From contig NZ_JAGDVS010000086.1 of assembly GCF_023255755.1 (NCBI RefSeq), forward strand, positions 1-33,539: a stretch of DNA of 33,539 nucleotides. Reading direction: 5' to 3'. Each line of letters begins with the position of its first letter. Within the stretch, counting starts at the first letter, position 1. Below, in pieces: positions 20,833 to 23,425 of the stretch. Under the pieces are notes generated by a model. It searched no databases and was not told where the DNA came from. It saw only the letters and a program-made list of their open reading frames with translations. The position numbers and the translations under genes are program-made. This DNA comes from Acidithiobacillus sp. (GTDB taxonomy: Bacteria; Pseudomonadota; Gammaproteobacteria; Acidithiobacillales; Acidithiobacillaceae).

Positions 20833-21981
20833 ATGACACGCATCACTGGGACCTACTCAATTTCCACGACACTGGGCGAGTCGGTGCGCGCCTTCGTGCC
20901 CCACGCCTTGCCGCCAGCTGAGCCAGCCCTGTCGCCCGAGGTGTTCACTGACCTCAATCGGCAGGCAGAACTGGCGCTTGCGCGTTTAGCGGGTGTGTCA
21001 GGGTTGGTGCCGTCGGCAGATTGGTTGCTGTACAGCGCCATCCGCAAAGAAGCCCTGCTTACGTCACAGATCGAGGGCACGCAGGCCACGCTGACCGACT
21101 TGTTCGATGAAGAAGCAGGCTTCAAAGTCAGCAACACCGACGACGTGGAAGAAGTGACCAACTACCTGCGTGCATTCCGCTGGACACAGGAGCAACTGCG
21201 CGATCCGAAAGGGCTGCCCATCAGCGTACGGCTGTTGTGCGAGGTGCATCGACGCCTGCTGGATGGAGCGCGCGGCGCAGGTAAACAACCCGGGGAGTTG
21301 CGTCGGTCGCAAAACTGGATTGGTGGAACACGGCCCGGCAATGCGGTTTTCGTACCGCCGCCGCCGGAGCACATATCAACCCTGCTGGCCGACATGGAGC
21401 GCTTCATCCATGACGAAGCGAAGGACCTGCCACCGATGGTCAAGGTGGCGCTCATCCACGCGCAGTTTGAAACCATCCATCCGTTTCTTGACGGCAACGG
21501 GCGCATTGGCCGCCTCCTGATCGCGGCGCTGTTTGAACACTGGGGGTTGCTGTCCGAGCCTTTGATGTACCTCAGCGGCTACCTAAAGCAACACCAGACG
21601 GAGTATTACCGTCGCCTATCGGCTATCCGCACAGATGGGGATTGGGAGTCTTGGGTGATCTTCTTTCTGGAAGGTGTCGCTACAGCCGCTGGCGATGCGG
21701 AAAAAAACATCATCGAGGTCGCCAGTCTGGTGGCTACAGATCGCAGGCGCTTGCTGCAATCCGCCAAGGCAGGCCCGGCCAGCTACCGGCTGTTCGAGAT
21801 GTTGCCGATGATGCCGCGCTTCACCATTGAACGCGTCAGAAAGCAGCTGGACACCAGCTTTCCCACAGCAACGGCGGCCGTAAAACTTCTGGAAGATCTG
21901 GGCGTCGTGACGGAGATGACCGGGCAGAAAAAGAACCGGAGTTACAGCTACCAGGCCTACGTTGAACTGCTCTCTCGGTGA
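20833..21981 (+). CDS. Fic-family protein AMP-transferase (class II)
   Basis: Fic proteins transfer AMP from ATP to hydroxyl side chains of target proteins. The 382-residue product has the Fic core HPFLDGNGRIGR with catalytic His216, phosphate-anchoring GNGR (221-224) and Arg227. An N-terminal inhibitory motif of the [S/T]xxxE[G/N] type, TSQIEG (77-82, inhibitory Glu81), marks it as a self-inhibited class II Fic protein. The C-terminal part (about 310-382) looks like a winged helix. It resembles the large stand-alone Fic proteins with Fic_N domain rather than small toxin FicT. There is a weak ribosome site. It lies directly after ssrA, a common integration point, and no antitoxin gene accompanies it. 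Target unknown. Confidence 0.93.
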   Translation: MTRITGTYSISTTLGESVRAFVPHALPPAEPALSPEVFTDLNRQAELALARLAGVSGLVPSADWLLYSAIRKEALLTSQIEGTQATLTDLFDEEAGFKVSNTDDVEEVTNYLRAFRWTQEQLRDPKGLPISVRLLCEVHRRLLDGARGAGKQPGELRRSQNWIGGTRPGNAVFVPPPPEHISTLLADMERFIHDEAKDLPPMVKVALIHAQFETIHPFLDGNGRIGRLLIAALFEHWGLLSEPLMYLSGYLKQHQTEYYRRLSAIRTDGDWESWVIFFLEGVATAAGDAEKNIIEVASLVATDRRRLLQSAKAGPASYRLFEMLPMMPRFTIERVRKQLDTSFPTATAAVKLLEDLGVVTEMTGQKKNRSYSYQAYVELLSR

Positions 21982-22487: not shown

Positions 22488-22505
22488 ATTTCCCGATCAG
22501 GAAAT
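22488..22505. promoter_or_regulatory. hip operator 1 (palindrome)
   Basis: ATTTCCCGATCAGGAAAT, an 18-bp inverted repeat with one mismatched pair. It is the first of three similar sites at exact 50-bp steps before hipB, and lies next to the ribosome site of the short minus-strand frame. HipB proteins bind such palindromes in known hipBA operons (E. coli uses TATCC-N8-GGATA). Confidence 0.75.
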
Positions 22506-22537
22506 AGCAGACCGAATCATGCCCTAACCGCACTAAA

Positions 22538-22555
22538 CATTCCCGATCGGGAAAT
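22538..22555. promoter_or_regulatory. hip operator 2 (palindrome)
   Basis: CATTCCCGATCGGGAAAT, with a perfect 14-bp palindromic core TTCCCGATCGGGAA (22540-22553). It lies 50 bp from operator 1 and just upstream of the candidate -35 box at 22561. Confidence 0.78.
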
Positions 22556-22560
22556 ATCGC

Positions 22561-22606
22561 TTGCACTTAGTCCGGTTTTGACTGACAATTTCCCGAACAG
22601 GAAACT
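22561..22606 (+). promoter_or_regulatory. Candidate hipB promoter region
   Basis: Two overlapping readings are possible: TTGCAC (22561-22566) with GACAAT (22584-22589), 17-nt spacer, or TTGACT (22578-22583) with GAAACT (22601-22606), 17-nt spacer. In both cases operator 3 overlaps the -10 or start region, which fits autorepression. The hipB ATG lacks a clear ribosome site, and with the second reading the message would be nearly leaderless. Confidence 0.45.
22588..22605. promoter_or_regulatory. hip operator 3 (palindrome)
   Basis: ATTTCCCGAACAGGAAAC, the least symmetric of the three copies, 50 bp from operator 2 and 10 bp before the hipB ATG. It covers the expected RNA start or -10 box. Confidence 0.75.
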
Positions 22607-22615
22607 GAGTCAGCC

Positions 22616-22876
22616 ATGCCATTCATTCGATCACCTCAACAACTCGGCGATGCACTGCGTGGAGCTCGCAAACAACTCGGGCTGACCCAGCCCCAGTTGG
22701 CGCTGGCAGCTGGGGTGGGCGTGCGCTTCATTGTCGACCTTGAAGCAGGCAAGCCCACCTTGCGGCTGGAAAATGTGCTGAGGGTCATTGATGCTCTGGG
22801 TGGTGAGCTTCAGTTGAGTGGATTGCCATCCGCTGCTTCCGACGCTCAACGAGAGGATGACGGCCATGGCGCATGA
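22616..22876 (+). CDS. hipB: HipB-like antitoxin / XRE-family repressor
   Basis: An 86-residue helix-turn-helix protein. The XRE fold runs from about 8 to 65: LGDALRGARKQLGLTQPQLA, then AGVGVRFIVDLEAGKPTLRLENVLRVIDALG, very like HipB antitoxins. In known systems HipB binds the HipA kinase and represses its own operon. The reading frame is complete and overlaps hipA by 11 nt (hipA ATG at 22866), the usual coupling. Three palindromes at 50-bp intervals precede it. As hipA is broken, this may now be a free-standing repressor. Family is well supported; function as antitoxin here is inferred. Confidence 0.88.
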   Translation: MPFIRSPQQLGDALRGARKQLGLTQPQLALAAGVGVRFIVDLEAGKPTLRLENVLRVIDALGGELQLSGLPSAASDAQREDDGHGA

Positions 22877-23425
22877 ACTGGAAGTCTGGCTTTTCGCCGA
22901 TCGTGTCGGCACGTTGGCGCTGGTCGATGGGCGGCTAAGCTTTTGCTACGCTCCCAGTTGGCTGACTCACAAAGACGCCATTGCCTTGTCCGCCTCGCTG
23001 CCCCTGCAAACGGAGCCGTTAGACGACCGCAAAACGCGCCCCTTTTTTGCGGGTCTTCTACCCGAAGGGCAAATGCGCCGCTTGATTGCGCAGCAGTTCA
23101 GGTGTCTGACCAGAACGACTTTGCGCTGCTGGACCACATCGGTGGCGAATGTGCCGGGGCTGTGACCTTCCTTGAGCCGGGGCAGACTATGCCTGTTTCG
23201 ACAGGCGGCGATGACGTTCAATGGCTGAGCGACGCGGAAGTCGTGGTCATCCTGGATGAATTACCGCGTCACCCCATGTTGGCAGGAAAAGATGGCTTGC
23301 GGCTTTCTTTGGCTGGTGCTCAAGACAAACTTCCGGTGGTGTTTGGTGGTGCGTGCATCGGGCTGCCCCTCAATGGCACGCCTAGTTCCCACATCCTGAA
23401 ATCGTCATCAATTCGTGTTGAATGA
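22866..23425 (+). pseudogene. hipA: hipA-like toxin kinase, frameshifted and truncated
   Basis: HipA is a serine kinase that stops translation by phosphorylating glutamyl-tRNA synthetase. The start MAHELEVWLFADRVGTLAL and FFAGLLPEGQMRRLIAQQF is the HipA N-terminal subdomain. At about 23096-23101 one base appears lost: the next part, QVSDQNDFALLDHIGGECAGA, continues in another frame and runs on through GLRLSLAGAQDKLPVV and SSHILK. It then stops after SSSIRVE at 23425. About 187 of the usual 430 or so residues remain and the catalytic kinase lobe is gone. A sequencing error could explain the frameshift but not the truncation. Confidence 0.88.

Follow-up and report, generated by a model that had tools for sequence, protein, structure and literature searches.

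Three palindromes in front of the hipB gene of an Acidithiobacillus sp. likely form an operator array through which a Y4mF-type hipBA operon regulates itself, with a pitch that would be set by the geometry of neighboring complexes. Across the 33,539-nucleotide stretch of DNA that was analyzed (hereafter “the window”), the three sites share a common core and lie exactly 50 bp apart from start to start, both between O1 and O2 and between O2 and O3. This much had been proposed from the sequence alone and held up on inspection: the sites, given here as 14-mers starting at 22490, 22540, and 22590, are identical to those that the sequence-only reading had placed at 22488, 22538, and 22588, i.e., where the same three sites start when written as 18-mers. 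The array ends 12 bp before the hipB start, and the locus contains the following elements:

22490–22503, + strand: operator O1 (distal), TTCCCGATCAGGAA, from direct sequence reading and pattern match; located 48–51 bp from O2 in all 67 three-site orthologues.
22540–22553, + strand: operator O2 (upstream of the -35 element), TTCCCGATCGGGAA, a perfect palindrome, from sequence and pattern match; its columns are nearly invariant in 68 sequences.
22561–22566, + strand: probable -35 element, TTGCAC, read from conserved columns -29 to -24 relative to O3.
22584–22589, + strand: probable -10 element, GACAAT (GATAAT in most orthologues), read from conserved columns -6 to -1; weak in the window copy.
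22590–22603, + strand: operator O3 (over the expected RNA start), TTCCCGAACAGGAA, from sequence, pattern match, and conservation profile.
22616–22876, + strand: hipB, encoding an 86-aa HTH antitoxin/repressor of the Y4mF family TIGR03070 (84.5 bits against a cut-off of 71.65).
22866–23405, + strand: hipA remnant, with codons 1–79 in one frame and codons 49–186 in another, after which it is lost.

The spacing was evaluated across 80 loci from other species, collected by HipB protein search alone, 79 of which had enough upstream DNA. Operator sites were present at all 79 of these usable loci. Overall, O2–O3 was the tighter of the two distances, measuring 50 bp at 77 loci and 49 bp at 2, and O1–O2 measured 50 bp in 36, 49 bp in 28, 48 bp in 2, and 51 bp in 1 of the 67 three-site loci. 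A clear O1 was absent from 12 of the 79 loci, and O2–O3 was still kept there. The pitch was likewise kept in L116, L129, L132, and L137, where the array stands at a different distance from the assigned hipB start. Conserved 50-bp spacing in relatives was the test that the sequence-only reading had set for itself, and the outcome was strongly positive, both for the 79 orthologues and for whole-genome scans that used the motif only: with distances of 34–64 bp allowed, all six pairs recovered were at 50 bp, and a looser scan over the same range placed 14 of 14 pairs at 49–50 bp, whereas the reversed-motif control yielded no pairs. When 32 related upstream regions were shuffled, none of the 960 shuffles produced a comparable three-site chain. 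With several palindromes upstream of hipB at a conserved spacing, the locus has the layout of a HipB multi-operator array. The genome-wide search for the core TTCCCGANCNGGAA that the same reading had suggested returned, by pattern scan of the 2.73-Mb genome, a single match outside the array, on another contig (C186:14373), close to the chance expectation for 12 fixed bases, and zero matches for the reversed-pattern control. A wider regulatory role for HipB in this genome was rejected on that basis.

We built a conservation profile from 68 non-redundant sequences, in which O2 and O3 are near-invariant and a -35 element (TTGC) and a -10 element (GATAAT) stand out between them, separated by a 17-bp spacer. 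O2 ends 7 bp before the -35 element and the RNA start falls inside O3, so that the placement of site 3 over the RNA start and of site 2 just before the -35, claimed previously, is supported by conservation. A simple consensus promoter scan of the window returned nothing strong. The boxes between O2 and O3, together with the position of O3 over the start site, mark this as a probable autorepression array. In Escherichia coli, HipB binds palindromic operators cooperatively, bends the DNA, and acts in repression together with its co-repressor HipA (PMC3920265). By analogy, HipB dimers would bind each of the three palindromes, and binding at O3, over the RNA start, and at O2, abutting the -35 element, would shut the promoter between them; blockage of the hipBA promoter by occupancy of O2 and O3 is the most likely mode of repression. 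O1 would contribute a third complex. The fixed pitch of 49–50 bp would hold neighboring HipB complexes, or HipBA complexes when HipA is present, at a set distance and rotation, at which contacts between them may form and allow cooperative filling of the array. Such cooperative contact across 50 bp is a proposal made from sequence rather than from a structure.

The pitch could instead follow from promoter geometry alone: if O2 must abut the -35 element and O3 must cover the start, a distance of about 50 bp results, and the complexes need no contacts. The position of the promoter, exactly between O2 and O3, agrees with this explanation, as does the tighter distance between these two sites. However, the letters of the O1–O2 spacer are nearly unconserved across the 68-sequence profile and include no conserved promoter, yet the O1–O2 distance remains within 48–51 bp in every three-site orthologue, and other HipB clades use ~27 or 38 bp between sites. 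Promoter geometry as the sole determinant is therefore unlikely. Given an O1–O2 length that is constant with no promoter and little sequence constraint, the geometry of neighboring complexes is the best explanation.

Beyond the orthologues, HipB operators fell into distinct pitch classes. A pitch of 26–28 bp, with very varied motifs, characterizes an E. coli-type clade, and a pitch of 36–39 bp a rhizobial and related group (L123, L175, L178, L146, L172, and L154). Most other loci, including the window type, have 48–51 bp; among them is a clade whose operators are unrelated in sequence (L139, L145, L156, L189, and L192). Two loci (L147 and L148) have 62–63 bp, and loci whose HipB is related to that of Legionella HipBST have 71–72 bp. 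Loci first scored as array-less were re-examined with gapped half-sites; where a hipA was present, most proved to have one of these pitches under a different motif. Across these sequences, pitch tracks HipA lineage and not operator letters. Specifically, when four classes (26–28, 36–39, 48–51, and 62 bp) were placed on a maximum-likelihood tree of HipA, 4 changes sufficed, whereas shuffled labels needed 28.8 on average. This comparison describes the pattern and is no blind test, since class labels were set after the spacings had been seen, some from the best-scoring of several detections and that of L179 from a 99-bp double interval. The 26–28 bp class forms one side of a branch of this tree with support of 100/98. 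Among individual HipA residues, those that align with E. coli G22, P86, and D88 were rejected as the sole cause of pitch, G22 varying within both classes; P86 and D88 are common in the 26–28 bp class and unseen in the 48–51 bp class, and may merely mark the clade.

A ladder fitted through the spacing classes had a period of 11.15 bp, a result that is suggestive only, as the classes were chosen after the fact and 1.5% of trials with random classes gave an equally good fit. Across the HipA-type toxin-antitoxin families, HipB sites might follow a ladder of ~27, 38, 50, 62, or 71 bp, in steps of about one helical turn, with a fixed rotation between neighbors even as operator letters and distance vary, a generalization we put forward tentatively and at somewhat less than even confidence. 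If it is true, pitch would be a property of HipA lineage, and direct contact of each HipBA complex with its neighbor would be indicated.

The sequence-only reading had suggested a looped or higher-order repressor array, with dimers on one face of the DNA; in the looped form, O1 and O3 would be joined by HipB–HipB contact. The regular spacing and the 70-degree bend that E. coli HipB is reported to impose on its operator (PMC3920265) would both suit a loop. At 10.5 bp per turn, however, 50 bp amounts to 4.76 turns, ~86 degrees short of five, and at 11.1 bp per turn to 4.50 turns, although twist in the complex may differ from either value; the one-turn ladder, itself post hoc, also puts neighbors near half-integer turns. 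Placement of the dimers on one face is accordingly not supported. The 12 loci that keep O2–O3 without a clear O1 likewise argue against a loop. What stands of the earlier proposal is a structured array; looping is not supported, equal neighbor spacing being fitted as well by contacts between adjacent complexes, and we regard it as improbable.

A further explanation is simple descent: the block of operators, perhaps of tandem-duplication origin, would have been inherited without enough time for its length to drift. All loci are homologous, and the spacers of close orthologues are still 42–65% identical, as this explanation would have it. Among 23 diverse, distant three-site loci, however, spacer identity has fallen to 31% against 27–28% for shuffled DNA, and the lengths still stay at 48–50 bp except in L176, where the distal site is doubtful. 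Near-random spacers combined with near-constant lengths among distant HipBs make the spacing look selected, and the pitch also holds where the operator letters are entirely different, which leaves descent alone very improbable. Tandem duplication as the origin was rejected, the two spacers within one locus being hardly alike (32% identity against 28% for shuffled DNA).

Slightly less credible still is a general paired palindrome read by some other protein, with hipB a mere neighbor: 59 viral contigs do carry the same core at 49–52 bp, 58 of them with no recognizable HipB nearby, but the inner flank of these viral pairs differs (N-A-W-T-T), bacterial pairs found by motif only lie mostly directly before hipB, and motif letters vary among HipB subfamilies with the position before hipB kept.

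The viral pairs, of the form TTCCCGNNCGGGAA, were found in IMG/VR contigs (L235–L293) that fall into 33 sequence clusters, in a search that allowed 44–59 bp. Spacings were 49 bp in 31 contigs, 50 bp in 20, 51 bp in 7, and 52 bp in 1 (examples at L238:5365-5427, L254:2538-2601, and L270:1010-1072), and the pairs are mostly intergenic, with the inner flank mirrored. Only one, in L269, adjoins hipBA. No common regulator was found among the neighboring genes, some of which encode terminase, DNA polymerase, or ribonucleotide reductase. As the viral pairs mostly occur without HipB, core and pitch alone are not proof of HipB. Outside the viral set, TTACCG operators at L200:1005-1068 (G759:C29:25604-25667) form a second pair, spaced 50 bp, ~2.2 kb upstream of the hipBA array on the same contig and beside an apparent IS200/IS605-type OrfB; this pair may represent another promoter under HipB control or else a promoter duplication. 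A 49-bp operator pair in G526 (G526:C3:14362-14424; L199:1063-1125) has no hipB-like gene nearby in an ORF check.

Multi-operator HipB arrays are known in E. coli, Caulobacter, and Legionella, so the kind of array described here is not new. The O1–O4 sites of E. coli K-12 hipBA resemble the window array in that several palindromic HipB sites precede hipB. They differ in sequence and spacing, as the earlier reading had stated and as is borne out here: the E. coli sites are TATCCN8GGATA with pitches of 28, 40, and 28 bp, as read from the sequence in this analysis, against TTCCCG..CGGGAA at 50 bp in the window, which contains neither TATCCN8GGATA sites nor 28-bp pairs in its array. E. coli hipBA also belongs to a separate, well-supported HipA clade, the one with the 26–28 bp pitch. 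The closest published case is probably that of Caulobacter crescentus hipBA1 and hipBA2, which have three palindromic operators (PMC8545095); their inverted repeats are identical, and the intervals reportedly agree with the higher-order complex of E. coli (PMC7029023). On a Brevundimonas plasmid, a relative from the Caulobacteraceae (L171) has TTCCTG/TTACCG/TTCCCG sites at 50 and 50 bp. In the Legionella HipBST system, three evenly spaced sites are conserved across species, and HipB binding was shown by EMSA (PMC10653801). This three-gene system differs in its motif and in having 18-nt sites with 53-bp gaps (PMC10653801), dimensions that match the 71–72 bp pitch of the HipBST-related loci above. 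Among open papers, we found none stating a 50-bp rule or a ladder, the Caulobacter supplementary figures and key structural papers lying outside the scope of this search.

HipBA is the classic persistence module, and E. coli has so far been the main source of evidence on whether its multi-operator promoter works through higher-order HipA–HipB–DNA assemblies. A pitch shared across the family and more durable than the operator letters amounts to a large natural experiment on such assembly. A pitch rule predicts spacing changes that should break cooperative repression, and helps to find HipB targets and to assign HipBA subtypes from DNA alone.

The sequence-only reading is supported as to an operator array of structured spacing before hipB, and missed the broken state of the adjoining hipA. 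hipB is intact, with a protein that is letter-identical in a second genome (G004) and scores above the curated TIGR03070 cut-off. It is followed directly, with an overlapping start, by a hipA fragment that matches the HipA N-terminal domain TIGR03071; full-length HipA relatives have ~425 aa, whereas the window gene is frameshifted near codon 79 and ends, truncated, near codon 186. The window locus therefore does not encode the intact HipA kinase of a HipBA type II toxin-antitoxin operon. In G004, a stretch 99.7% identical over 3.3 kb has the same hipA break (L006), and, G004 being a single contig, an assembly error is unlikely. Full-length HipA is present in relatives with the same array, including G003, where hipA is intact. 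In G005, from the same genus, O1, O2, and further-decayed pieces are kept at the same place. With hipA broken, the array here cannot control a working toxin-antitoxin pair, and hipB would now repress only itself. The window copy of O3 has an A at a column where 99% of the aligned sequences have G, and this deviation, together with that of the -10 element, would fit relaxed selection after toxin loss. The window array thus looks like a surviving relic with slight decay, which probably outlived its toxin in the source genome, a locus at which an array can persist after toxin loss.

Just upstream of the hipBA remnant, at 20833–21981 of the window (+ strand), lies an intact gene for a Fic-domain protein of 382 aa (Fic_N and Fic), and a Fic gene also precedes hipBA on a Sphingobium plasmid (L121). 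hipB was also seen with a 50-bp array and no recognizable hipA downstream (L113:1501-1850), and on a viral contig (L112:2869-3201) a hipB-like gene has a 49/49 array but likewise lacks hipA.
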